Assembly: GCF_002160985.1 (NCBI RefSeq)
Contig: NZ_NFLQ01000004.1
Location: 124,001-188,000, forward strand
Direction: 5' to 3'
DNA length: 64,000 bases
Source of the DNA: Lachnoclostridium sp. An118
GTDB lineage: Bacteria; Bacillota; Clostridia; Lachnospirales; Lachnospiraceae
Both the position numbers and the translations under genes were made by a program. Every line of letters starts with the position of its first letter. Position 1 is the first letter of the stretch. Positions 21,453 through 33,896 of this stretch are shown here, piece by piece. The notes under the pieces were generated by a model. That model had not been told where the DNA came from, searched no databases, and saw only the letters and a program-made list of their open reading frames with translations.

Positions 21453-21471
21453 GAAAATGAAAATTATTATC
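21453..21471. promoter_or_regulatory. Fur-type box
   Basis: GAAAATGAAAATTATTATC matches 16 of 19 positions of the consensus GATAATGATAATCATTATC. It lies 11 bp upstream of the -35 of the heme operon promoter, consistent with control by iron through a Fur-family protein. The site is read by eye; binding is inferred. Confidence 0.65.
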
Positions 21472-21482
21472 ATTGGATAATA

Positions 21483-21512
21483 TTGACAGAAATTGAAAAG
21501 GCATGGTAGTAT
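21483..21512 (+). promoter_or_regulatory. Promoter of the heme-uptake operon
   Basis: TTGACA (21483-21488), 18-bp spacer, TAGTAT (21507-21512). Transcription would start near 21519, at the edge of the first GTTAG-N6-CTAAC box. Confidence 0.7.
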
Positions 21513-21519
21513 CATAACA

Positions 21520-21600
21520 GTTAGGATAAGCTAACTCACTGGACAGTATAGAAGCTGTCCGGTGAGTTGCTTTTTTGACTAACAGTTAGTTCGGACTAAT
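21520..21600. promoter_or_regulatory. Two GTTAG-N6-CTAAY boxes in the heme operon leader
   Basis: GTTAG-GATAAG-CTAAC (21520-21535) and GTTAG-TTCGGA-CTAAT (21585-21600) start 65 bp apart, close to six helical turns. The half-sites resemble those of DtxR-family iron repressors (TTAGG ... CTAA). In group A Streptococcus the related heme operon is controlled by the DtxR-family protein MtsR. Both boxes lie in the transcribed leader, so an RNA role is also possible. A third copy precedes the ABC genes at 47871. Confidence 0.55.
21533..21576 (+). terminator. Leader terminator / attenuator of the heme operon
   Basis: AACTCACTGGACAG (21533-21546) pairs with CTGTCCGGTGAGTT (21555-21568) over 14 positions with one G-T pair, followed by GCTTTTTT. 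It begins within 20 bases of the predicted transcription start and precedes the first gene by 55 bp. Its first three bases are shared with the upstream GTTAG/CTAAC hairpin, so the two structures compete, which suggests attenuation. Confidence 0.65.
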
Positions 21601-21630
21601 AAAAATTAGAAATGACGGAGATAAGTGGAT

Positions 21631-22116
21631 ATGAAGATCGCAGGCAGAAAAAAGAAGATAGTCATTGCCGCTCTTGTCCTTATCCTGGCGGGAGCTGTGG
21701 GAATCTATTTTTACACGAGACCCAGGGAAGTGACGAACTATGCGGAGTTTGAGGAGGCTCAGGAGAAGCCGGACAGCCAGCAGGCAGACAGCGGTGTGAC
21801 AGACGGGATACAGATCCCGGGCTACAAATCTGTCACCATACCCGCAGGCACGAAGGATGTGTCGGTGGAGCTGGTCAATCCGGAGGAGAATACCGTGTAT
21901 TTCCAGATTTCTTTCTATCTGCCGGAGACAGATGAGACAATCTACACGTCGAAGCTGATCCAGCCCGGCCAGCATCTGTATGAGATCACACTGGATAAAG
22001 AGATGGAGGCCGGAGAGCATCCGCTCACCGTCAGATACGAGACCTTCAGCGCGGATGAGGAGATGGCCCCGAGAAACGGGGCGGAGGTCAACTGCACGCT
22101 GATCGTGGAGGGATAG
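21631..22116 (+). CDS. Membrane-anchored beta-sandwich protein, first gene of heme operon
   Basis: The protein has 161 residues from ATG 21631, ten bases after GGAG; a GTG two codons upstream is too close. One N-terminal helix (KIVIAALVLILAGAVGIYFY) anchors it. The exterior part (IQIPGYKSVTIPAGTKDVSVELVNPEENTVYFQISFYLP) is a beta-sandwich found in several Lachnospiraceae envelope proteins; I know no function. As the first gene of a heme operon it could hold surface receptors or relay heme. No heme-ligand motif is apparent. Confidence 0.6.
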   Translation: MKIAGRKKKIVIAALVLILAGAVGIYFYTRPREVTNYAEFEEAQEKPDSQQADSGVTDGIQIPGYKSVTIPAGTKDVSVELVNPEENTVYFQISFYLPETDETIYTSKLIQPGQHLYEITLDKEMEAGEHPLTVRYETFSADEEMAPRNGAEVNCTLIVEG

Positions 22117-22164: not shown

Positions 22165-23109
22165 ATGAGGTTAAAGAAATTGATGACAGGGGCCCTTTCT
22201 GTGGCCATGCTGGGGACTATGATGTGCAGCACGGCGTTTGCGGCCGACTATGCTGACGGAGACTACAAAGGGGAGATTCATTTTCTCAATGCCAATGGAA
22301 GCGGAGCTGCCAGCATGTGCGACCCCATCTTTGTGCACGAGGCGGAGATGACGCTTGATGCAGACAGCGCGGAGCTGACATTCTATGTGGCTTACCCGAT
22401 CCCCGCATTCCCGGAGCTGGGCACTGACGGCACGATCCTGGACGTGGTGCTCACGGTAGATGGCACAGAGTACACAGCGGAGTCTGATATAACGACAAAG
22501 CCCGAGAAGGTGTTTGACACGACCGCCAGCCTGTTTGGGATAACCGAAGGGGAGTCCTACCCGACCCAGGTGCTGACGGTGGACCTTCCAAGAGACGCGG
22601 TGGATGACCTGGAGGCGGGGACGGTATCTGCCTCTGCCTATGTAAATTCCGTGATGAACTCCACCCAGAGCTTCTTTATACAGGTGACAGATCTGCAGTC
22701 TGTGGGCGGGACGCCCCAAGAGCCCTCTGCGGACACGAAGGATATGCAGATAACGGCAAATGTGGAGGAGTCGGTCTCTGCACCCTCCTACACAGTCACA
22801 GTGCCTTCTTCTGTGGAGCTGGGCACACTGAGCACAGAGGAGGATAACGCGATGCCCTACGTGGTGGACGTAACGGCGTCTGACCTGAACGGCGAGATCG
22901 CTGTCACAGCGCCGGAGACAGGCAGCCTGACAAGCGATGGGAACACGCTGGCTTTTTCCAACAGCTTTAAGACACAGACAGTTAATGCAGACACGGCAGG
23001 CACCAAGCTGAGCGGAACGATCAGCATCGGAAAGGATGCGGTTGCCGCGGCCAAAGCCGGAAACTATACCGGAACTACAACATTCACCATTACCTACAAA
23101 GCTAACTGA
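22165..23109 (+). CDS. Secreted NEAT-like heme-binding protein
   Basis: A 314-residue secreted protein with a signal peptide (residues 1-27, cut after AFA). Residues 28-190 resemble a NEAT domain: YADGDYKGEIHFLNANGSG then ASMCDPIFVHEAEMTLD, followed by beta strands ending in a possible Tyr-bearing strand. Residues 196-314 are an Ig-like surface domain (ITANVEESVSAPSYTVTV ... NYTGTTTFTITYKAN) repeated in the next gene. There is no sortase motif or membrane helix, so it is released or held non-covalently, a hemophore-like layout. NEAT domains bind heme with Tyr ligands in IsdA/IsdX-type proteins. Heme binding here is inferred. Confidence 0.65.
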   Translation: MRLKKLMTGALSVAMLGTMMCSTAFAADYADGDYKGEIHFLNANGSGAASMCDPIFVHEAEMTLDADSAELTFYVAYPIPAFPELGTDGTILDVVLTVDGTEYTAESDITTKPEKVFDTTASLFGITEGESYPTQVLTVDLPRDAVDDLEAGTVSASAYVNSVMNSTQSFFIQVTDLQSVGGTPQEPSADTKDMQITANVEESVSAPSYTVTVPSSVELGTLSTEEDNAMPYVVDVTASDLNGEIAVTAPETGSLTSDGNTLAFSNSFKTQTVNADTAGTKLSGTISIGKDAVAAAKAGNYTGTTTFTITYKAN

Positions 23110-23207: not shown

Positions 23208-25919
23208 ATGAGAAGAAAAAAGACAGGAAAGAGATGGGCGGCGCTTGCCCTTGCGGCTGTCCTGGCCGTCGGGACAACGCAGCCCATGGGAGCGGAGGCT
23301 GCCGGGGGAACCTACACGGGCAGCGGTACATTCCATATAGACCAGTTCGGTGAGTACGACATCAATGCTTCCGTGTCTGTCACGGACGGCGTGATCACCG
23401 GCCTGGAGATAACGGGAGACAATTTCGGCGGGACCTATGCGGAGGTCAACAAGGGTAAGCTTGCCTCCGCCGTGAAGGGGATGCAAAGCCGCATCATAGG
23501 TCTGGGGGATACGGACGCCCAGGGCCTGAAAGGGCTGGACGGCGTGTCGGGAGCCACCTACTCCTCCAACGGTATCAAGGAGGCTGTGGCATCGGCCCTG
23601 GGACTTTCCCTGGAGGAGACAGCCCCGGGAGTGCCCTCCCAGACGCCGGCGGCGGGAACCTATGATATCACCGTGGCGGTGCGCAGCGATGTGGTGGACC
23701 ACAGCCTTGTGCAGACGGATACGGCCCCGGCTGTGCTGACAGTGGATGAGAGCGGGCAGATGACGCTGTCCTACACCATGGTCTCCGGCACGGACCAGGA
23801 GCCCATGTACATCCTTGGATTTAACGGCTACTACGAGAACAACGACACAGCGGCCGCCCTGACTATGGACGGCGTTACATACAATACAGAGCAGAGGGGG
23901 GGCTACCAGGTCGTCACAGATGTATCCTTCCCCCTGACCGGCGCTCTGAGCCAGTATTACTGCAACAACACTTACATTTATGTGCCTGCCATGAGCAATC
24001 TGAACGGGGAGATCAGCGGCATTTATTTTGAAAACGGCAGGTTCAGCGTCAAGACTATCGTGACCATGTACTGGGATACGCTGACAGCCAGGGCGCAGAC
24101 CCCTGAGACGCCGGATGCCACCCAGGAAAGCATGGACGTGACGGCCAGCGTGGCGCAGGAGACCTCCGCTCCGTCCTACCAGGTCACCGTGCCCTCGTCT
24201 CTTGACATGGGAGCCCTCAGCAGGACCGAGGAGAATGTGCAGGAGTACGACATCACCGTGTCCTCCCAGGACAAGGTGGGCACTGTGACTGTGACGGCGC
24301 CGGAGGGCGGTCTCCTGTACGCGGACAGCCATTCCCTGGCGTTTTCCAATGATTTCGGCACCCAGTCCTTTCAGGCAAAAGAGACGAGGGACGCGGGGGC
24401 CGATGAGGCGGTGCTTGGCGGAAGGATCACCATTGCGGGAGCAGACGTGGCGGCAGCCGCGCCCGGCAACTACACCGGCACCACAACCTTTACCATATCC
24501 TACAGCAGTGCCGGCGGAGGCGGGACGACGGAGCCGGAGGAGCCTCAGCCTGACCCGGGGGAGGACCCAGGGGACGGCGATGAGGGGGAAGACCTGGCAG
24601 AGGGAACCTACACCGTGGACGTTTTCCTATGGCACGCCACCAATGACGCCCTGTCCATGGGCAATGCGGCCCTCCAGCCCAAGGGGACAGTGGTGGTGGA
24701 TGAAAACGGGGACATGTCCCTGCGGCTCACCTTCCAGTCCCTGGATATTTCCGGCATAGAGGGCTATCTGTACCGGCTGCGGAAGGTGGATATGGACACT
24801 GTGGAGTACAACCAGGTGGGATATCCATCCTCCTACGAGGCGGCGGACGCAGATGTGCTTGAGTATTTTGCGGGCGTGCACGACGCCTACAATGACCCGG
24901 ACTCTCCGTCCTACGATGGGAAAACGGAGGGAAAGGAGTATCCGAAGGTCATCTCCATTCCCATCCAGAAGGATGAGGACATGAATTATGTGGAAATCTA
25001 CGTGCCTGTCATGGAGGCCATCGGCGCCGGGCAGGGCACCCAGCTGGCCAGGCTCCACATTGACTGGAGCACCCTTGCGCAGGGCGGCGGGGAGCCGGAG
25101 AGCCCGGATCCCGGCGGGGATGAGCTGGATATCCGCAATCTGCCGGACGGCGTGTACTCGGTAACGGGGCGTATGCTGAAGGTGGACAAGGAGACCCTCT
25201 CCATGTCCGACAATGCCATTGACCACACCATCAAGCTGACAGTGAAGGACGGGAAGTATGCTCTGACCATGAACTTCCGGGGACTCACCATCGGCAGCCA
25301 GCTGGGCTATCTTGGGCGGCTCCAGTACTTTGCCTCCGGCTACACGCTGGACCACCAGTACGGAAATCCCCAGGGAGACCTGCAGGCTGTGACAGTGGAC
25401 AGCTATCAGCAGAACGAGGACGGCTCGAGAGTCAGCGACCAGTACGGGACAGACTACCCGGATGAGGTCACCTTTGAGCTCATACCGGAGGCTCTGGAGG
25501 ACGGCTATGTGCCGCTGCAGGTCTTTGTCCCCATCATGGACGCTATCGCGTCGGGAACAGGGACGCAGCCTGTGTTCCTGGCTCTTGACTGGGATACGCT
25601 GCAGGCCACGACAGACGATGACCCGGCTTTCGACGACGAGGGCCAGACGGATGATGAGGAAACAGACGGCAACGGAGAAGGCTCGGGCCTTACCGGCGGC
25701 AGTGGTCTGGGAACCTCCACTCTGCCAGGAGGCTCCTCTCTGGGAGGTTCCTCCCTCGGAGGCTCATCTCTTGGCGGTTCCAGCCTGGGCGGCTCCTCCC
25801 TGTCCGCAGCCCGGACGGGAGATGAGACGGGGACAGCCCTTGCCGGATGGGCGGCGCTGCTTATATTGGCGGGCGCTGCGGTCGTCCTGGCCCTGCGGCA
25901 GAGAAGAGGAAGCAGGTGA
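23208..25919 (+). CDS. Cell-surface FMN_bind-NEAT fusion protein
   Basis: A 903-residue protein from ATG 23208 (MRRKKTGKRW) after GACGGAGGG. Order: signal peptide 1-32; FMN_bind domain 33-132 with D111-G-V-S-G-A-T117-Y-S119, matching the DxxSGATxS motif where ApbE attaches FMN to Thr; NEAT-like module about 143-290; the Ig-like domain shared with the previous gene, about 310-430; NEAT module about 465-620 (LWHATNDALSMGNAAL and YVEIYVPVM); NEAT module about 645-810 (LKVDKETLSMSDNA); five GGSSL repeats; then RTGDE, a membrane helix and a basic tail. The end resembles a diverged sortase signal. Inference: an extracellular heme receptor carrying its own flavin redox group. Confidence 0.8.
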   Translation: MRRKKTGKRWAALALAAVLAVGTTQPMGAEAAGGTYTGSGTFHIDQFGEYDINASVSVTDGVITGLEITGDNFGGTYAEVNKGKLASAVKGMQSRIIGLGDTDAQGLKGLDGVSGATYSSNGIKEAVASALGLSLEETAPGVPSQTPAAGTYDITVAVRSDVVDHSLVQTDTAPAVLTVDESGQMTLSYTMVSGTDQEPMYILGFNGYYENNDTAAALTMDGVTYNTEQRGGYQVVTDVSFPLTGALSQYYCNNTYIYVPAMSNLNGEISGIYFENGRFSVKTIVTMYWDTLTARAQTPETPDATQESMDVTASVAQETSAPSYQVTVPSSLDMGALSRTEENVQEYDITVSSQDKVGTVTVTAPEGGLLYADSHSLAFSNDFGTQSFQAKETRDAGADEAVLGGRITIAGADVAAAAPGNYTGTTTFTISYSSAGGGGTTEPEEPQPDPGEDPGDGDEGEDLAEGTYTVDVFLWHATNDALSMGNAALQPKGTVVVDENGDMSLRLTFQSLDISGIEGYLYRLRKVDMDTVEYNQVGYPSSYEAADADVLEYFAGVHDAYNDPDSPSYDGKTEGKEYPKVISIPIQKDEDMNYVEIYVPVMEAIGAGQGTQLARLHIDWSTLAQGGGEPESPDPGGDELDIRNLPDGVYSVTGRMLKVDKETLSMSDNAIDHTIKLTVKDGKYALTMNFRGLTIGSQLGYLGRLQYFASGYTLDHQYGNPQGDLQAVTVDSYQQNEDGSRVSDQYGTDYPDEVTFELIPEALEDGYVPLQVFVPIMDAIASGTGTQPVFLALDWDTLQATTDDDPAFDDEGQTDDEETDGNGEGSGLTGGSGLGTSTLPGGSSLGGSSLGGSSLGGSSLGGSSLSAARTGDETGTALAGWAALLILAGAAVVLALRQRRGSR

Positions 25920-26947
25920 TGAAGGTGAGAGTGGGAAATAAGATAAGGCGGGCGCTGGCAGGCGCCCTGGCAGCTCTCCTGGTCCTGGCAGCAGGGCAGG
26001 GGGCTGCGCCCCTGTCCGCCCTGGCGGCCGGCGGAAACGTCTATACCTGTGTGGTCCATCCCTGCTACGCCCACCCGGACACCGGGGCCATCGAGGACTC
26101 CGGGGGAGAGGCGTCCCGCCCCATCGGACAGGGAATGGTGGAGGGAGCGGTCTACACCACAGGCATCCTGGAGGTGACGGACAGCGGGGCCTACTACCTG
26201 ACCATCCGCATGAGCTTGATGAGCTACACCTCCGGTCACAGCTTCTGGGTGCAGAACGTGGGGGACTCCTCCTGGGCCAGCCCGGCTGTGGGCGTGACGG
26301 GGAGCGGATCGGACAGCAACGGGGCCACATCGGATATCTGTATCCAGGTGCCCAGTGAAAACTGTGTGGTCCGGGTCTCCATGTATGTAAGTCCCATGGG
26401 GAGAGATGTCATTTTTTATCTCTATCCAAGCGACTACACCGTGGGAAATAACACAGACATGAACGCCACTATCGTGACGGCCGCGTCCGGCAGATCATCA
26501 GGAACTTCCTCCGGGACAGGCAGCGCCTCGGCAGGCAGCAGCACGGCCGGCGGCAGTTCCTCAGGCAGCACTGCGGGCGGCGCGTCCGGCGGCTCCTCCC
26601 TTGGCAGCAACAGTCTGTCGGCGGCGGGCTTGGCCGATACGGATACAGGGGAAGAGACAGATGGAAGCGAGGCGCCGGCCCTCTCCAGCTCCATAGAGGA
26701 GGCGGCGGACCCGGCCACAGCCACAGACGGTGAGCTGTCCGACGCCCAGGGGCTGAGCCTCTCTACTGCCTCGGACGGTTCCGGGGAAGAGGGGACGGAC
26801 GGAGCTTCCGGCAGCGGCGTGTTTGCCGTGGCGGCGGCCGTCATGGTGACCGGTCTGGTCTTTATGGGAGCGGCGGCAGCGATCGTCTATTTCTTCCGGA
26901 GAAACTGGCGCAGATGGGGCGGAGGTTACGAAGATGATGAGGATTGA
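25919..26947 (+). CDS. shp: Shp-type surface heme-binding protein
   Basis: A 342-residue protein whose ATG overlaps the stop of the previous gene. After a signal peptide (1-37) residues 40-180 align well with streptococcal Shp: HPDTGAIEDSGGE, then IGQGMVEGAVY, then RMSLMSY, then SPMGRDVIFYL. The two Met ligands of Shp correspond to M73 (GQGM) and M160 (SPMG); their 87-residue spacing equals that of Met66 and Met153 in Shp. A Ser/Gly/Ala-rich acidic linker, a membrane helix near 305-327 and a charged tail follow. Shp takes heme from NEAT receptors and passes it to the transporter lipoprotein; the same relay is likely here. Confidence 0.88.
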   Translation: MKVRVGNKIRRALAGALAALLVLAAGQGAAPLSALAAGGNVYTCVVHPCYAHPDTGAIEDSGGEASRPIGQGMVEGAVYTTGILEVTDSGAYYLTIRMSLMSYTSGHSFWVQNVGDSSWASPAVGVTGSGSDSNGATSDICIQVPSENCVVRVSMYVSPMGRDVIFYLYPSDYTVGNNTDMNATIVTAASGRSSGTSSGTGSASAGSSTAGGSSSGSTAGGASGGSSLGSNSLSAAGLADTDTGEETDGSEAPALSSSIEEAADPATATDGELSDAQGLSLSTASDGSGEEGTDGASGSGVFAVAAAVMVTGLVFMGAAAAIVYFFRRNWRRWGGGYEDDED

Positions 26948-28082
26948 CAGGAAAAAGGCAGCCGGGAGGACGGCAGTTGGAAGGGCAGCAGGCGCGCTGG
27001 CCTGCAGCGCCCTGACACTGAGCCTCCTGGCAGGATGCGTGGACCAGAGCGGGAGCGCGGATGGTCAGACCGGGTCGGCGGACACGGCGGCGGGCTCTGC
27101 CGGGAGCGTGGAGACCCTCCTTGAGATAACAGACCCCCAGGAGAAGGCGGCCGTGGAGGCGGCCAAGGCCAAGGTGGCGGCTATGGGGGAGGAGCCCCGC
27201 GTCATCGCCACCTCCCCCGCCACAGCCGACATCTGTGACCGGTTGGAGCTGGACCTTGTGGGCGTGTGCACCAGCACCATATCCTCCCTGCCGGAGCGGT
27301 ACGCAGAGGTGGAGCAGGTGGGGACGGCCATGAGTCCGGATATGGAGATCGTGGCCTCCCTCTCCCCTGACTGGATATTAAGCCCCTCCAGCCTCCAGTC
27401 GGACCTGCAGCCAAAGTACGAGGCCATTGACACAGACTGGGCCTTCCTGAACCTGCGCAGCGTGCAGGGGATGTACCGGTCCATCCAGGAGCTGGGAGAG
27501 ATATTCGGCAGGGAGGAGCAGGCCGGGAAGCTGGTAGACGAATTTACGGAATTCTACGAGGACTATGTGACCAGAAATGAAGGGCAGGAGAGCCCCAAGG
27601 TGCTGATCCTCATGGGGCTTCCGGGGAGCTACATCATCGCCACGGAGAACTCCTATGTGGGAAGCCTGGTGGAGCTGGCGGGAGGCGAGAATGTGTACGC
27701 CGGCACAGACCAGGAATTCCTGACTGTGAACACAGAGGATATGAAGTCCAGGGAGCCGGATGTCATCCTGCGGGCCGCACATGCGCTGCCGGACCAGATC
27801 ATCGAGATGTTCAACGAGGAATTTGCGACAAATGACATATGGCAGCATTTCACGGCGGTCAAGGAGGGGCGGGTCTACGACCTGACCTACGAGCTCTTTG
27901 GCATGAGCGCCAATTTCAACTATCCGGAGGCCCTGGAGGAGCTCCAGCCCATGCTCTATCCCCAGAGCGAGGATGACTCGGAGCAGGCAAAGGAAAACAG
28001 CGACAGGGCCGCGGAGGCGGCCAGGGAGAGCGAAGCCACCGGGAAGACTGACGAGGAGACGCTGCAGGAGATTACAAAGTAA
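26934..28082 (+). CDS. Heme ABC transporter substrate-binding lipoprotein (HtsA/IsdE type)
   Basis: The 382-residue protein is a cluster-A substrate-binding lipoprotein. The lipobox LSLLAGC (Cys near 35) is followed by an acidic linker and a FecB-type fold: EEPRVIATSPATADICDRLELDLVGVC, EIVASLSPDWILSPS, then a helical backbone and VLILMGLPGSYIIATENSYVGSLVELAGG. Its start overlaps the end of the shp gene by 14 bp. The C-terminal 50 residues are a charged tail unusual for the family. It should receive heme from Shp and deliver it to the permease. Confidence 0.85.
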   Translation: MMRIDRKKAAGRTAVGRAAGALACSALTLSLLAGCVDQSGSADGQTGSADTAAGSAGSVETLLEITDPQEKAAVEAAKAKVAAMGEEPRVIATSPATADICDRLELDLVGVCTSTISSLPERYAEVEQVGTAMSPDMEIVASLSPDWILSPSSLQSDLQPKYEAIDTDWAFLNLRSVQGMYRSIQELGEIFGREEQAGKLVDEFTEFYEDYVTRNEGQESPKVLILMGLPGSYIIATENSYVGSLVELAGGENVYAGTDQEFLTVNTEDMKSREPDVILRAAHALPDQIIEMFNEEFATNDIWQHFTAVKEGRVYDLTYELFGMSANFNYPEALEELQPMLYPQSEDDSEQAKENSDRAAEAARESEATGKTDEETLQEITK

Positions 28083-28095
28083 GGAGAGGTGAGCC

Positions 28096-29145
28096 ATGAG
28101 CGAAGAAAAAATGACAGTACCGGAGGAGGCCCGGAGGATGGACCAGAGCCGGAAAAAGAAGAAGACAGCCAGGGCGGCCCTCTCCTTCCTCATCCTGGGA
28201 GTCCTCCTGGCGGCGCTGGTATTTGCCTCCATCAATATCGGGAGCCTGCAGGTGTCCTTTGGGGAGCTGATGAGAGGGCTCTTTGTGGAGCGCATCGAGA
28301 ACGTGGCGGCCATCTATGACCTGCGCTTTCCGAGGATCGTGATTTCCCTCTTTGCGGGGGCGGCGGTGGCTGTGGCGGGCGTCCTCTTCCAGGCAGTACT
28401 GAAAAATCCCCTGGCAGACCCGGGCATCATCGGCATTTCCAGCGGGGCCAGCTTTGCGGCAGTGCTGGTCACGGCCTTTCTCCCGGCTCTCTATTTCTTT
28501 ACCCCCCTCTTTGCCTTCGGGGGCGGCGTGCTGGCCTTCTTTCTTGTGTACAGCCTGTCCTGGAAGGGGGGCTTAAGCCCCCTTCGCATCATCCTCACAG
28601 GCGTGGCGGTGAGCGCCATGTTCTCAGGCCTCTCGGACGCCCTGAACTCCATGACAGGGGGCAGCTCCTCCGGGGTGGCCTCCATTGTGGAGGGGAACAT
28701 CACCCAGAAGACCTGGGAGGACGTGCAGACCCTTCTGCCCTACGTCATCGTGGGGCTGGTGCTGGCGGTGCTGTTCTCCAAAATGTGCAATCTCATGACT
28801 CTGGAGGACAAGACGGCCAGGGGGCTGGGAGTCAATGTCAACCTGATGCGCATCCTGATCTCTCTGGTGGCGGTGCTCCTTGCCAGCATTTCCACGGCAG
28901 TGGCGGGAGCCGTCAGCTTCCTGGGGCTCATCGTACCCCATATAGGGCGCATCCTGGTGGGCAGCGATCACCGGGCGCTGGTGCCCTTCTCCATGCTGGC
29001 GGGGGCCTTTACTTTCCTTCTGGCGGACACTATCGGAAGGACCGTGGCGGCGCCCTACGAGGTGTCGGCCTCCATCATCATGAGCGTGATCGGCGGCCCG
29101 TTCTTTATCATTTTGCTTAGGAGGTCAAAGAAATATGCAGCGTGA
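28096..29145 (+). CDS. FecCD-family permease for heme/iron
   Basis: A 349-residue BtuC/FecCD-type permease with ten hydrophobic segments. Family landmarks are LRFPRIVISLFAGAAVAVAGVLFQAVLKNPLADPGIIGISSGA (residues 75-118) and the late VSFLGLIVPHIGRILVGSDHR loop that contacts the ATPase, plus RTVAAPYEVSASIIMSVIGGPFF near the end. AAGGAGAGG precedes the start. It pairs with the lipoprotein and the ATPase as a type II importer. Confidence 0.92.
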   Translation: MSEEKMTVPEEARRMDQSRKKKKTARAALSFLILGVLLAALVFASINIGSLQVSFGELMRGLFVERIENVAAIYDLRFPRIVISLFAGAAVAVAGVLFQAVLKNPLADPGIIGISSGASFAAVLVTAFLPALYFFTPLFAFGGGVLAFFLVYSLSWKGGLSPLRIILTGVAVSAMFSGLSDALNSMTGGSSSGVASIVEGNITQKTWEDVQTLLPYVIVGLVLAVLFSKMCNLMTLEDKTARGLGVNVNLMRILISLVAVLLASISTAVAGAVSFLGLIVPHIGRILVGSDHRALVPFSMLAGAFTFLLADTIGRTVAAPYEVSASIIMSVIGGPFFIILLRRSKKYAA

Positions 29146-29923
29146 GGATAAGAAGAAGCCCGCCATGGAGGTGAGGGGGCTGTATTTTTCCTACGGGAAG
29201 AACAAAGTGCTAAGAGACGCCTCCTTTACCATCGAGGAGGGAGAGATCACCACCATCATGGGGGCTAACGGGTGCGGGAAATCCACCCTTTTCAACCTGA
29301 TGACAAAAAACCTCTGCCCCCGGAAGGGAAATATCTTCCTCTGGGGGAGAAATATCCAGAATCTGGCGCTGAAGGAGTTTGCCCGGAAGGTCTCCATCGT
29401 GCACCAGTACAACACCTCCGCTGACGACATCACAGTGGAGAGGCTGGTGTCCTTTGGCAGGACCCCTCACATGAAGATGATGCAGGCCCGCAGCCAGGAG
29501 GACGAGGAGAAGATACGGTGGGCCATGGAAGTGACGAACGTGGAAACATACAGGGACAGGGAGGTGGGAAGGCTCTCCGGGGGCCAGAGACAGCGGGTGT
29601 GGATCGCCATGGCGCTGGCCCAGAGCACGAAGATACTCTTCCTGGACGAGCCCACCACCTACCTGGATATCCGCTACCAGATCGAGATCCTGGAGCTGGT
29701 CCAGAGGCTGAACCGGGAGTACGGCATCACCATCATCATGGTCCTCCACGACATCAACCAGGCCATCCACTACTCGGACCGCATCATCGGGCTGAAGGAC
29801 GGACGGGTGGCCGCCTGGGGAGCGCCCGGGGAGATCATCACGCCGGAGTGCATCCGGGAGCTGTACGGCATCTCCCTGGATGTGACAAATGTAGAAGGAA
29901 AGAAATTTGTGCTCACCGTCTGA
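29135..29923 (+). CDS. FecE-type ATPase of the heme/iron importer
   Basis: A 262-residue ABC ATPase with Walker A GANGCGKST (near 45), Q-loop VHQYNT (near 90), signature LSGGQRQRVWIA (near 150), Walker B ILFLDEPTTYLD (near 170) and switch His in VLHDINQA (near 208). The start codon lies inside the permease gene (11-bp overlap), indicating translational coupling. It powers heme or ferric-chelate uptake. Confidence 0.93.
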   Translation: MQREDKKKPAMEVRGLYFSYGKNKVLRDASFTIEEGEITTIMGANGCGKSTLFNLMTKNLCPRKGNIFLWGRNIQNLALKEFARKVSIVHQYNTSADDITVERLVSFGRTPHMKMMQARSQEDEEKIRWAMEVTNVETYRDREVGRLSGGQRQRVWIAMALAQSTKILFLDEPTTYLDIRYQIEILELVQRLNREYGITIIMVLHDINQAIHYSDRIIGLKDGRVAAWGAPGEIITPECIRELYGISLDVTNVEGKKFVLTV

Positions 29924-29957: not shown

Positions 29958-30374
29958 ATGAACAACAAAAATCCGATCCGTTTCCTGTGGATCATCGCGG
30001 GATTTATCTGTCTGGGACTGGGGACAGTGGGCATCGTGCTGCCTATCCTGCCAACAGTCCCCTTTTATCTGGCCACTGTGTTCTGCTTTGCGAAGAGCTC
30101 CAGGAGGCTCCACGACTGGTTCCTGGGGACCGGTCTGTACAGGAAGCACCTGGACAGCTTTGTCAGGCGGAAAGCCATGACCATGCAGACGAAATGCTCC
30201 ATTGTGGGGACCGTGACCGTGGTCATGGCCATTGGATTTATCCTGATGAAGAATGTGCCCGTGGGCAGGATCTGTCTGGCCATTGTCTGGGTGTGCCATG
30301 TCATTTACTTTTTCTTCCGCGTGAAGACGGTCAGGCGGGAGGATGGAAAGGGGCAGGAGCGGGCCTATGATTAA
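29958..30374 (+). CDS. YbaN/DUF454 family membrane protein
   Basis: A 138-residue protein with the DUF454 signature [40 protein letters not shown] followed by a basic loop and two more helices. YbaN-like proteins are often encoded near heme or cytochrome-related ABC transporters, but their function is unproven. It lies between the importer ATPase and the CydDC-like pair, and its stop overlaps the start of the next gene. Likely a partner in handling imported heme. Confidence 0.8.
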
Positions 30375-32118
30375 GAAGAGACTCCTGGGGCTTCTGTCCC
30401 AGTCAAAAAAATACATTTACTTTCAGGTGCTCTGGCAGTGGCTCTCCCTCCTCTGCCAGATTTTGGTGACAGGCAGCGTGTCCATGCTGCTGGAGCAGGC
30501 AGTCTTCTGGCAGGTGACCGCCGCCTCGGCCCTTACATGGGGCGGTCTGGCCCTGGGCGCCATTGCCCTGCGGTTTGTCTGTGACAGGCAGGCCTCCTTT
30601 GCCTCCTACCGGGCCAGCGTGGATGTGAAGAGGGTCCTGCGGGACAGGATCTATGAGAAGCTCCTCCGTCTGGGAGCCTCCTACCGGGAGAAGACAGCCA
30701 CGTCGGAGGTGGTGCAGATGGCGGCGGAGGGAGTGGAGCAGCTGGAGACCTATTTCGGCAGATATCTGGCCCAGCTTTTCTACAGCCTCCTGGCGCCGGT
30801 GACTCTGTTTGCCGTCCTCTCCTTTGTCAGCTGGAGAGCCAGCCTTGTGCTCCTTATCTGCGTGCCCCTCATCCCGATATCCATTGTGGCGGTGCAGAAG
30901 TTTGCCAGGCGCCTGCTGGCAAAATACTGGGGCATTTACACAGAGCTGGGGGACAGCTTCCTGGAAAATCTCCAGGGCCTGACTACCCTGAAGATTTATC
31001 AGGCGGATGAGGAGAAGGCCCGGGAGATGGACCAGGAGTCCCAGAAATTCCGGCGGGTCACCATGAAGGTGCTGACCATGCAGCTCAATTCCACCAGCGT
31101 CATGGACATCATCGCCTACGGAGGGGCGGCGGCGGGCATGATCGTCACCCTGTGGGAGCTGGCGGGGGGAAGGGTGAGCCTTCACGGAGCGCTGATGCTC
31201 ATCCTTCTGGCCTCCGAGTTCTTCATCCCCTTGCGCCTTCTTGGCTCCTTCTTCCACATTGCCATGAATGGCATGGCAGCCAGCGACCGGATCTTTGCCC
31301 TGCTGGACCTGCCTGAGCCTGCGCAGGGAGAAGAAATCCTGGCGGGAGGACAGACGGACCTGGCATTTGAGAACGTGTGCTTCTCCTACGGGGAGGACAG
31401 GCAGATACTGGACCAGGTGTCCATGGAGTTCCCGGCGGGGAGCTTTACCTCCATCGTGGGGGCCTCGGGCTGCGGCAAGAGCACGGCGGCCGGCATCCTC
31501 ATGGGGAGGAACAGAGGCTATAGAGGCAGCGTGAGGATACAGGGAAAAGAGCTGTCCCATATCCGGGAGGAAAGCCTGATGGACCAGATCACCATGGTGA
31601 GCCATAACAGCTGGCTCTTTAAAGGCACAGTGGAGGACAATCTGCGGATGGGAGCGCCGGACGCCGGGCAGGAGGAGATGGAGGAGGCCCTGAGGAAGGT
31701 CAGACTGTGGGATTTCCTGGCCGGGCAGCAGGGCCTTCAGACCCCTGTCCTTGAAAAAGGCAGCAACTTCTCCGGCGGCCAGTGCCAGAGACTGGCCCTG
31801 GCAAGGGCCCTGCTCCACGACACGCCGGTGTACATCTTTGACGAGGCCACCTCCAACATTGATGCGGAGAGCGAGGAGATGATCATGGAGGCCATCCGCC
31901 GCCTGGCCGGGGAGAAGACGGTCATCCTCATCTCCCACCGGCTGGCAAATGTGACCGGGTCGGACCGTATCTATTTGATGCAGGACGGCAGGGTGGCGGA
32001 GAACGGCACCCACCGGCAGCTCCTGGAGAGGAAGGGACAGTATGAGAAGCTGTACAGGACCCAGATGGAGCTGGAGCAGTATGGAAAAGAACAGTATGGA
32101 AAGGAGGCGGCAGTATGA
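30367..32118 (+). CDS. CydD-like ABC transporter ATP-binding/permease
   Basis: The 583-residue protein starts at ATG 30367, inside the last codons of the DUF454 gene; an ATG eight codons earlier lacks a ribosome-binding site. Six membrane helices (residues 20-290) with the CydD-like motif [20 protein letters not shown] are followed by an ATPase with [36 protein letters not shown] and ISHRLANV. CydDC pairs export thiols or bind heme and are needed for cytochrome bd assembly. Here the pair sits in a heme operon, as in streptococcal sia operons, which suggests heme or porphyrin trafficking. Confidence 0.85.
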
Positions 32119-33896
32119 GCGGAGAAAACGGAAAAGCAAAAAGCGTGCAGCCAGGCAGCGGTGAGATGAGAAACACCCCCATGCGGCGTAGCGGCATCAG
32201 AATCATGGGCCGCCTCGTGGGGCTGGTGACCCCGCTTCTGCCGGTCATGCTCCTGGCAATCCTTCTGGGAACGCTGGGCTATCTGTGCGCCATCTTTCTC
32301 ACCATCCTGGCAGGATTTGGGCTGCTGCACATCCTGCTGGTGGCCGCAGGCGTGGAGCTGAACCCGGGGACAGCGGGGCTTCTCCTGGGGATGGAGCCGG
32401 GGACACTTTTTGTCCTCCTCATTGTCCTGGCGGTGGCCAGGGGCGTGCTCCACTATGGGGAGCAGTACTGCAACCATTTTATCGCCTTTAAGCTGCTGGC
32501 CATCATCAGGCACAAGGTGTTTGCCGCCCTGAGAAGGCTCTGTCCGGCCAGGCTGGAGGGGCGGGACAAGGGCAACCTGATATCGGTCATCACGTCGGAC
32601 ATCGAGCTTCTGGAGGTGTTTTACGCCCACACCATCTCCCCCATTGCCATCGCCGTAGCGACCTCCCTTGTGATGGTGCTGTTCATCGGGCAGTTTTCCC
32701 CGGCGGGGGCGGTGCTGGCGCTGGCAGGCTACACCGCGGTGGGAGCTGTGCTCCCCCTTGTGTTCGGAAAAAGAGGAGGCGGGGCCGGCATGGAGTTTCG
32801 CAGCGCCTTTGGGGACCTGAACAGCTTTATCCTGGACTCCCTGCGGGGGCTGGACGAGACCATCCAGTACGGCCAGGGAGAGAGGAGAAGAAGGCAGATG
32901 GAAGAGCGGTCAGACAGCCTGGGCGCTCTGCAGAAAAATCTGAACCGCCTGGAGGCGTCCCAAAAGTCGGTCACCAACCTGGTCATCCTTCTCTTTTCTC
33001 TTGCCATGCTCCTTCTCATGATAGTCACGAAGCAGGCCGGGGAGGCGGACCTGGTGGGTATGGTCATCGCCACCATTGCCATGATGGGCTCCTTTGGTCC
33101 TGTGACAGCTCTCTCCAACCTGTCCAACAATCTGAACCAGACGCTGGCGGCAGGCGAGCGTGTCCTGTCCATCCTGGAGGAGGAGCCCCAGGTGGAGGAG
33201 GTAAGCGGAAGGGAGCACACAGATTTTGGGGGAGCGCAGGCCGAGAAGGTCAGCTTTGGATACGGGGAGGAGGAAATCCTGTGGGACTACTCTGTGGAGA
33301 TACCCAAGGGAAAGGTGATCGGCATCCACGGGGCCAGCGGCTCCGGGAAGTCCACCTTCCTGAAGCTTTTGATGCGCTTCTTTGACGTCCGGGAGGGGAA
33401 GATCCTCATTTCCGGCAGGGATGTGCGGGAGATCAACACAGCGGACCTGCGGGAGATGGAGTCCTATGTGACGCAGGAGACAAGCCTTTTCCACGACTCC
33501 ATCGCCGCCAATATCGCCGTGGGAAAGCCCGGGGCGTCCATGGAGGAGATCGTGGAGGCAGCGAAAAAGGCCTCTGTCCACGACTTCATCCTGTCCCTGC
33601 CAAAGGGCTATGAGACGGAGGTGGGAGAGCTGGGAGACACCCTCTCAGGGGGAGAGAGGCAGAGGATAGGCATTGCCAGAGCCTTTCTCCACGATGCACC
33701 CTTCCTTCTCCTGGATGAGCCTACCAGCAATCTGGACTCTCTGAACGAGGGTATTATCCTGAAGTCTCTGGAGGCGGAGAAGAAGGACCGGACCGTGGTG
33801 CTCGTGTCCCACAGGAAATCCACCATGAACCTGGCGGACACAGTGTACGAGATGGACAAAGCCTCCCGTCCCGGTCAGGAGAGGGAGGCCATGTAG
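32115..33896 (+). CDS. CydC-like ABC transporter ATP-binding/permease
   Basis: A 593-residue half-transporter translated from an ATG overlapping the previous stop (ATGA). Six helices come before residue 330. The ATPase domain has GASGSGKST, TLSGGERQRIGIARAFL, LLDEPTSNLDSLNE and SHRKSTM. A Gly-rich loop (GKRGGGAGME) interrupts the middle of the membrane domain. Together with the preceding gene it forms a heterodimer. The product of this last operon gene ends 22 bp inside the convergent J-protein gene. Confidence 0.85.
   Translation: MSGENGKAKSVQPGSGEMRNTPMRRSGIRIMGRLVGLVTPLLPVMLLAILLGTLGYLCAIFLTILAGFGLLHILLVAAGVELNPGTAGLLLGMEPGTLFVLLIVLAVARGVLHYGEQYCNHFIAFKLLAIIRHKVFAALRRLCPARLEGRDKGNLISVITSDIELLEVFYAHTISPIAIAVATSLVMVLFIGQFSPAGAVLALAGYTAVGAVLPLVFGKRGGGAGMEFRSAFGDLNSFILDSLRGLDETIQYGQGERRRRQMEERSDSLGALQKNLNRLEASQKSVTNLVILLFSLAMLLLMIVTKQAGEADLVGMVIATIAMMGSFGPVTALSNLSNNLNQTLAAGERVLSILEEEPQVEEVSGREHTDFGGAQAEKVSFGYGEEEILWDYSVEIPKGKVIGIHGASGSGKSTFLKLLMRFFDVREGKILISGRDVREINTADLREMESYVTQETSLFHDSIAANIAVGKPGASMEEIVEAAKKASVHDFILSLPKGYETEVGELGDTLSGGERQRIGIARAFLHDAPFLLLDEPTSNLDSLNEGIILKSLEAEKKDRTVVLVSHRKSTMNLADTVYEMDKASRPGQEREAM

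Follow-up and report, generated by a model that had tools for sequence, protein, structure and literature searches.

Why should a bacterial surface receptor for heme carry a flavin domain? The question is raised by a gene in a stretch of 64,000 nucleotides from Lachnoclostridium sp. An118 (contig NZ_NFLQ01000004.1, positions 124,001 to 188,000; this whole stretch is called the window). The open reading frame at 23208-25919 on the forward strand encodes a protein that joins an FMN_bind domain to three modules with NEAT fold and lies in a heme operon. We propose, at about an even chance, that the protein acts as a surface heme receptor of Shr-like type and carries its own electron carrier, a covalently bound flavin that would reduce heme in the NEAT modules before it moves on to Shp and HtsA. 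The gene and its parts are:

23208-25919, + strand: FMN_bind/NEAT heme receptor, 903 residues, from Pfam domains
23304-23609, + strand: FMN_bind domain, residues 33-134
23538-23564, + strand: flavinylation motif DGVSGATYS, with the acceptor T117 at 23556-23558
23646-24086, + strand: NEAT-fold module 1, residues 147-293, with invariant H165 and M262, from fold and profile comparison
24114-24506, + strand: FimA-like immunoglobulin-like (Ig-like) domain, residues 303-433
24594-25085, + strand: NEAT module 2, residues 463-626, with the Met pair M484/M602
25128-25604, + strand: NEAT module 3, Shr NEAT2-like, residues 641-799, with the Met pair M666/M777
25803-25916, + strand: C-terminal RTGD motif, hydrophobic helix and basic tail, read as a surface anchor

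The boundaries of the reading frame and its length agreed exactly with the initial annotation of this DNA. That annotation had also described an FMN_bind domain with the motif residues D111, T117 and S119 and an Ig-like domain, and both were recovered: the former by Pfam and residue numbering, the latter with FimA pilins as the best structural matches (Z 8.7). When the whole protein was searched for PF05031 and PF04205, NEAT scored 54.8 bits against a cut-off of 32.8, and FMN_bind 35.1 bits against one of 22. The N-terminus resembles a signal peptide on reading. Since the predicted full-length structure was the weaker model (mean predicted local distance difference test score, pLDDT, 67.8; predicted template modelling score, pTM, 0.30), the arrangement of the domains cannot be read from it. 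A model of FMN_bind plus module 1, predicted with 21 aligned rows, reached a mean pLDDT of 87.3 and a pTM of 0.68. With this model Foldseek by itself found nothing at or below E 0.001; matches came only from VIA.

The unit of FMN_bind and module 1 was found at 22 further loci in one scan of named genomes, mostly of Lachnospiraceae. Carriers are Eubacterium sp. ER2 (94%), Blautia, Mediterraneibacter, Drancourtella, Scatomonas, Hominisplanchenecus and a Roseburia metagenome-assembled genome (MAG), together with further Lachnospiraceae and Firmicutes, two Clostridia MAGs and one Gracilibacteraceae MAG. Module 1 follows FMN_bind directly in the window and at 22 of 22 loci, the presence of FMN_bind being given by the design of the scan. 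The scan used two peptide patterns, and because both fall within FMN_bind it is blind to a module 1 without this domain. The local hidden Markov models were iterated on the fetched loci, and weak matches may drift. The fusion is not a product of chance, since it is also carried by other genera, with identities as low as 37%. Modules 2 and 3 vary among the relatives, some of which carry module 3 only. At locus L077 the flavin unit, without modules 2 and 3, is joined to P2N, the N-terminal domain of the partner protein P2 described below, and the Shr-like NEAT protein of the same genome lies at L040; at L076 the main Shr-like NEATs sit on the next gene. A TGD motif followed by a hydrophobic stretch and a basic tail was seen in 16 of the 23 proteins, with TDD or TAD in three more. 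The L073 protein ends in S-layer homology domains and the L075 protein has a cell-wall-binding domain; inspection of the 23 C-termini revealed no anchor in the L072 and L076 proteins. As a side observation, the L075 protein (L075:909-8012, + strand; from the Gracilibacteraceae MAG, in which no RnfD was detected) is a frame of 2368 residues that stays open where its contig ends; besides the cell-wall-binding domain it contains NEAT, FIVAR and two copies of FMN_bind.

Cut out alone, the FMN_bind domain scored 39.6 bits, and D111 to T117 follow the pattern D-x-x-[ST]-G-A-[ST]. By VIA, the FMN_bind half of the model matched domain 2 of SaFMN3 (8p2a) with Z 10.6 over 86 residues and a root-mean-square deviation (rmsd) of 2.1. 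The fold is that of the crystallised domains SaFMN3-D2 and CbFMN4-D1; SaFMN3 is a covalent-FMN protein whose domain 2 has been solved (PMC10339131). In the 21 aligned rows, which reach down to 37% identity to the first row, the acceptor Thr and the preceding Ala are kept in 21 of 21, the Asp and the [ST] position in 20 each and the Gly in 18. The full motif is present in 16 of these rows, or in 18 of 23 once L063 and L064 are counted; it departs at L065 (AGAT), L067 and L070 (TSAT), L072 (SSAT) and L073 (E for D). Such changes in five of 21 rows would suit an FMN_bind domain retained as a fold or spacer, without a working flavin or with one lacking a redox role, and like folds occur in proteins without covalent FMN (matches to IscU and lipoate ligase). 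We consider this explanation unlikely in view of the constancy of Thr and Ala and the nearly constant Asp at such low identity. Moreover, in another protein flavinylation fell to about half on exchange of Gly to Ala, suffered little from Asp to Ala and was lost entirely on Thr to Ala (PMC12052999); the mutants in section 8 of that source do not cover Gly to Ser. In the genome of the window's own strain, the only two FMN_bind matches are an RnfG-type gene and this receptor.

Among the NEAT modules, the initial annotation had counted three. Modules 2 and 3 hold by sequence, and module 1 is a NEAT domain by fold only. As separate pieces, module 3 passed the Pfam cut-off alone (40.5 bits), module 2 stayed below it (21.6 bits) and module 1 gave no Pfam match up to E 0.1. 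Module 2 aligns with module 3 and has the NEAT fold. The structural matches were IsdX2 NEAT5 and IsdX1 for module 3 (Z 14.0) and IsdH NEAT3 for module 2 (Z 12.0-12.1). Module 3 aligned with Shr NEAT2 (PDB 9w5y) at E 3e-38, and a profile of modules 2 and 3 at E 4e-51. In an alignment of modules 2 and 3, each of the 21 rows has Met in both ligand columns. These columns match positions 28 and 138 of the 9w5y chain, and this spacing of 110 is that of Met997 and Met1107, the published axial heme ligands of Shr NEAT2 (PMC12796733). Met is likewise invariant at columns 41 and 128 of 13 Shp rows; their spacing of 87, compared without aligning the two proteins, equals that of Met66 and Met153 in streptococcal Shp (PMC2266757).

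An Isd-type receptor was ruled out by the family scores (IsdC 31.3 against 155.85 bits; IsdX2 18.3 against 1400) and by the Met ligands. Of the first interpretation, a flavin carrier and NEAT domains on one protein in a heme operon stand. Two corrections apply: from its Met ligand pairs the receptor is to be called Shr-like and not Isd-like, and module 1 counts as NEAT by its fold. The Shr-type hemoglobin-interacting domain HID (PF07550) gave no match in the receptor up to E 1, and the same library finds it in a protein at L047. Lacking HID and bearing FMN_bind at its N-terminus, the protein is therefore Shr-like and not Shr.

Module 1 matched IsdX1 by VIA (Z 9.4, 119 residues, rmsd 3.5), as well as Hbp2 N2 (Z 8.3) and Shp (Z 6.9), and hhalign gave its profile a probability of 94.2 against modules 2 and 3. 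H165 and M262 are each kept in 21 of 21 rows. Since in hhalign the first ligand position is taken by a Val and H165 lies three residues before it, a His/Met pair is put forward only as a possibility. It is conceivable, though we hold it to be quite improbable, that FMN_bind and module 1 form a flavin-heme pair, module 1 having turned into a cytochrome with heme on H165 and M262 that is reduced by the adjacent FMN. If so, scavenged heme would be an extracellular redox cofactor, which reduces either acceptors outside the cell or the heme that modules 2 and 3 carry as cargo.

The heme operon assumed by the initial annotation was confirmed by the neighbouring genes, and the features around the receptor are:

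21458-21472, + strand: Fur-box-like site, one mismatch to the 15-base consensus, just upstream of the promoter-like site
21483-21512: promoter-like site, downstream of the Fur-box-like site
21532-21569, + strand: terminator-like hairpin of 16 pairs between the promoter-like site and the first gene, a possible attenuator
21631-22116, + strand: small protein with hydrophobic N-terminus and a weak FimA-like match (PF21514, 15.1 bits, cut-off 27)
22165-23109, + strand: partner P2, composed of the N-terminal domain P2N and an Ig-like domain of the receptor's type
25919-26947, + strand: Shp heme-relay protein (PF11545, 200.2 bits)
26934-28082, + strand: HtsA/IsdE heme-binding lipoprotein (TIGR03659, 401.7 bits, cut-off 298.65)
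28096-29145, + strand: HtsB permease (FecCD)
29135-29923, + strand: HtsC ATPase
29958-30374, + strand: DUF454 small membrane protein (125.7 bits)
30367-32118, + strand: CydD-like half of an ABC exporter (410.7 bits, below the cut-off of 435; scanned from the second codon)
32115-33896, + strand: CydC-like half of an ABC exporter (311.8 bits, below the cut-off of 329.05)

Between the receptor and HtsC, neighbouring genes either overlap or are separated by 13 bases, and the adjacent genes for Shp, lipoprotein, permease and ATPase make up a Shp-HtsABC relay operon. Shp is encoded at the same locus in 13 of the 23 cases, and Shp or HtsB in 15. Neither was present in the examined stretch, in some cases a short contig, of L062-L064, L066, L068, L071, L075 and L077. 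As a further observation, a two-component system and an ABC exporter with large permease lie downstream of the receptor at L062 and L063. This arrangement brings to mind heme-sensing and efflux systems.

The link between the flavin unit and heme uptake was assessed in 397 genomes of the family. Shp was found in 26 and the unit in seven (E 1e-20), and all seven carriers are among the 26 Shp genomes (hypergeometric P 2e-9, or 3e-8 without the window's own genome, both without correction for kinship), in support of the heme link which the initial annotation had given to the flavin domain. One of the two scans scored at most two candidates per genome and the other was set at E 1e-20; within these limits no module 1 without FMN_bind was seen. 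As the unit and Shp lie at separate loci in genomes G021, G028 and G347, genetic linkage alone does not explain the co-occurrence. In G028 and G347, both Blautia-type, no other NEAT receptor was found in the 20 kb around the Shp-HtsABC operon (L080, L081). When presence of the flavin unit is mapped as a label onto a tree built from 32 Shp sequences, five changes are required, at least three of them forced by starred branches; in this tree 18 of 29 inner branches are open, the bootstrap is not settled and L047 is labelled as without the unit. A single origin of the unit was set aside on these label changes. The unit thus seems to come and go and does so, in this sample, only in Shp genomes.

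This distribution bears on two other roles of the flavin. The captured heme could be a cofactor and not cargo, with a chain from flavin to NEAT-heme allowing an anaerobe to reduce distant acceptors. The invariant H165 and M262, which could form a His/Met heme, would fit such a chain, and so would receptors with no Shp operon in the examined stretch, such as those of L062, L063 and L077. We judge it very unlikely, as the seven of seven co-occurrence with Shp suits import better, H165 is offset from the ligand position and no linked acceptor or donor enzyme was found. Alternatively, the flavin could act outward on host hemoproteins, ferric iron or other nearby acceptors, the NEAT modules merely catching whatever is released. 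Other gene clusters link flavinylated proteins to the assimilatory reduction of iron (PMC8238504), and the ectodomain of the receptor is long and apparently surface-anchored. Furthermore, G103 (L047), a genome without the unit, encodes a different surface-type FMN_bind protein (39.1 bits, SGAT motif) a few genes before a NEAT-Shp-Hts operon. This protein (L047:2-6579, + strand) comprises at least 991 residues, being cut at the end of the stretch, and has Ig-like domains and leucine-rich repeats but no NEAT module; the protein encoded beside it contains an HID domain of Shr-like type (PF07550, 24.9 bits, cut-off 22.3). The FMN_bind protein of L047 represents a second way for such a protein to stand beside a Shp-Hts relay, and in this respect it also counts in favour of our main proposal. 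An outward role nevertheless appears improbable for the receptor: all 23 proteins of its type have the flavin domain fused to module 1, and this unit occurs only together with Shp (seven of seven), which points to heme rather than free iron; furthermore, the receptor contains no detectable PF07550 domain.

Where attachment and reduction of the flavin are concerned, the initial annotation had placed apbE and a possible electron donor outside the window. Two ApbE genes are indeed located elsewhere in the genome (G000), on contigs C54 and C31, the window being part of contig C34; one lies about 4 kb from the RnfG-type FMN_bind gene. In keeping with a donor outside the window, an Rnf-type cluster also lies elsewhere in this genome as a possible donor; it includes PF03116 together with a protein of FMN_bind type. 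PF03116 of RnfD type is present in 22 of 23 genomes, once as a fragment, a count taken among carriers of the unit only.

Building on the established domains, motif, Met ligand columns, operon, conservation and link to Shp, the reduction of heme on the receptor would proceed as follows. ApbE would attach FMN to T117 outside the membrane. Electrons from the membrane would then reduce the flavin, the likeliest source being the Rnf complex or its flavinylated subunit. From the flavin they would move on to ferric heme in the NEAT modules, the adjacent module 1 first. Finally, the Met-ligated modules 2 and 3, Shp and HtsA would carry the heme inward, at least partly as Fe(II). The covalent flavin of SaFMN3 has a potential of -184 mV (PMC10339131), which is plausibly low enough to reduce Met-ligated heme if the potential of the heme is higher. 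Shr as isolated is a mixture of ferric and ferrous heme forms (PMC2266757), and neutral Met ligands may hold either Fe(II) or Fe(III) heme (PMC12796733). For these reasons an electron flow from flavin to Met-ligated heme appears plausible; a literature search on the reduction potential of SiaA returned nothing. Reductive heme release, which the initial annotation had suggested, requires a site that loses affinity on reduction and has no specific support; it is simpler to assume that ferrous heme is passed on to Shp and HtsA.

Several points weigh against heme reduction by the receptor's own flavin. Bound FMN, bound heme and electron transfer are what we infer, as are the identity of the donor and a resulting gain in uptake. 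The full motif is altered in five of 21 rows (S replaced by A in one, G by S in three and D by E in one), and module 1, whose heme binding is assumed, has no sequence match to any solved NEAT domain in the PDB. The unit is absent from 19 of the 26 Shp genomes and is therefore accessory, not needed for the relay as such. ApbE is present in 22 of 22 genomes of relatives; since the family baseline is 180 of 200, its co-occurrence is uninformative and was dropped as evidence. The operon contains no donor gene, and in one carrier genome, MAG G415, no RnfD was detected. Fer4_5, DUF4405 and Ferric_reduct were not found in the window's own genome, PepSY not having been searched. A DsbD-type protein, which on reading ends in a thioredoxin-like part, is present there, so that Rnf can be called no more than a candidate donor.

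The exporter genes downstream invite one further explanation, namely protection: reduced flavin and bound heme could scavenge oxygen or peroxide or render surface heme harmless. Reduced SaFMN3 uses oxygen (PMC10339131), and the CydDC-like exporter stands in the same operon. We regard protection as highly improbable, given that CydDC-like genes are likewise found downstream of Shp operons that show no FMN_bind match (L041-L044), and that no linked peroxidase gene was noticed, though no search was aimed at peroxidases. On the same distribution, the CydDC-like genes were rejected as part of the flavin system.

Upstream of the receptor, P2 adjoins the receptor gene in most relatives. P2N exceeds 150 bits at 18 of 23 loci and is highly conserved, with invariant Cys, His and Met. 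The idea that P2N is a further NEAT domain was not borne out: on the hhalign scale on which module 1 reached 94.2, its probability was 0.9 against Shp and 0.4 against module 1, and it gave no PDB match. P2N-like matches were also seen at L040 and L052.

The control region at 21458-21631 is possibly an attenuator or small RNA and gave no Rfam match at the gathering score. L057 keeps the Fur-box-like site (two mismatches), the promoter-like site and the hairpin, the last with one C replaced by T, so that the bases still pair as G-U. Among the 21 loci besides the window and L057, the site at L067 was borderline (three mismatches, shuffle P 0.04), and 17 further loci had no Fur-box-like site beating chance at P 0.05; L065 was too short, and at L059 and L061 the upstream gene was taken as the operon start. 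Fur control as a general trait was rejected, being clear only in the window and L057.

Near Shp operons we also noticed proteins of about 280 residues whose N-terminal part resembles a winged helix and whose C-terminal NEAT-like domain mostly bears SM...GFEHP and MPES; a signal peptide was not apparent by eye. They are encoded at:

L042:16315-17187, - strand; L046:8642-9502, - strand; L047:6623-7498, + strand; L048:5580-6491, - strand; L049:4739-5575, + strand
L072:8136-8996, + strand; L073:4334-5161, + strand; L084:5760-6638, + strand; L087:3950-4786, + strand

Eleven such proteins were aligned (those of L050 and L088 being odd) and gave a probability of 97.5 and E 6e-12 against the NEAT alignment in hhalign. 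On six of them Pfam NEAT was below cut-off in three and absent in three, and the protein of L048, the only one compared with the PDB, matched MntR weakly (E 0.0017). They share loci with Shp operons, the loci having been chosen for NEAT or Shp matches. They are possibly cytosolic heme sensors with a NEAT domain. In addition, an iron-dependent-repressor-like protein (L045:12832-13626, - strand; Fe_dep_repr_C, 45.7 bits) lies beside another winged-helix protein and a heme operon.

Compared with known systems, the locus resembles the streptococcal Shr-Shp-HtsABC relay in that a single operon encodes NEAT modules with Met pairs together with Shp (PF11545), a lipoprotein of HtsA type and a FecCD transporter. 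It differs by the N-terminal FMN_bind domain with a third NEAT fold, the FimA-like Ig-like domain, P2 and the CydDC-like genes, whereas HID domains belong to Shr and no flavin domain is described for it in the available sections of PMC12796733. With the ApbE-flavinylated proteins RnfG, NqrC, SaFMN3 and CbFMN4 the receptor shares the FMN_bind fold and the motif. In contrast, the available parts of three sources describe no extracytosolic flavinylated protein joined to a heme-uptake module (PMC8238504, PMC11334425, PMC12052999), and the word NEAT is absent from their main texts as available. The survey among them ties flavinylation to iron uptake, with no mention of NEAT, Shp or Isd in the sections at hand (PMC8238504). 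Like the Isd hemophores and receptors IsdX1, IsdH and IsdB, all three modules have the NEAT fold, but Met occupies the ligand columns of modules 2 and 3, the scores are far below the IsdC cut-off and the operon is of Shp/Hts type. Heme reduction at an uptake receptor has been raised, though not proven, for the fungal Frp1 and Frp2, which are eukaryotic ferric-reductase-related proteins and neither NEAT nor FMN_bind (PMC9635878). A heme-trafficking protein of the flavodoxin superfamily is described from an anaerobe (PMC10404700). A search of open-licence full texts in PubMed Central, with the domain name entered as 'fmnbind', found no paper joining FMN_bind flavinylation and NEAT heme uptake. 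The receptor type and the cofactor domain are known, and their combination is new.

Overall, the heme relays in the cited descriptions pass heme from protein to protein, and iron reduction along the way is not settled in their available parts. A receptor with its own flavin makes the reduction of heme iron testable by one point mutant, T117A. If the proposal is true, energy metabolism (ApbE, perhaps Rnf) would be linked to iron uptake in gut anaerobes, and heme would join the targets of extracytosolic flavoproteins. Some anaerobic gut bacteria may thus hand electrons to heme during its uptake.

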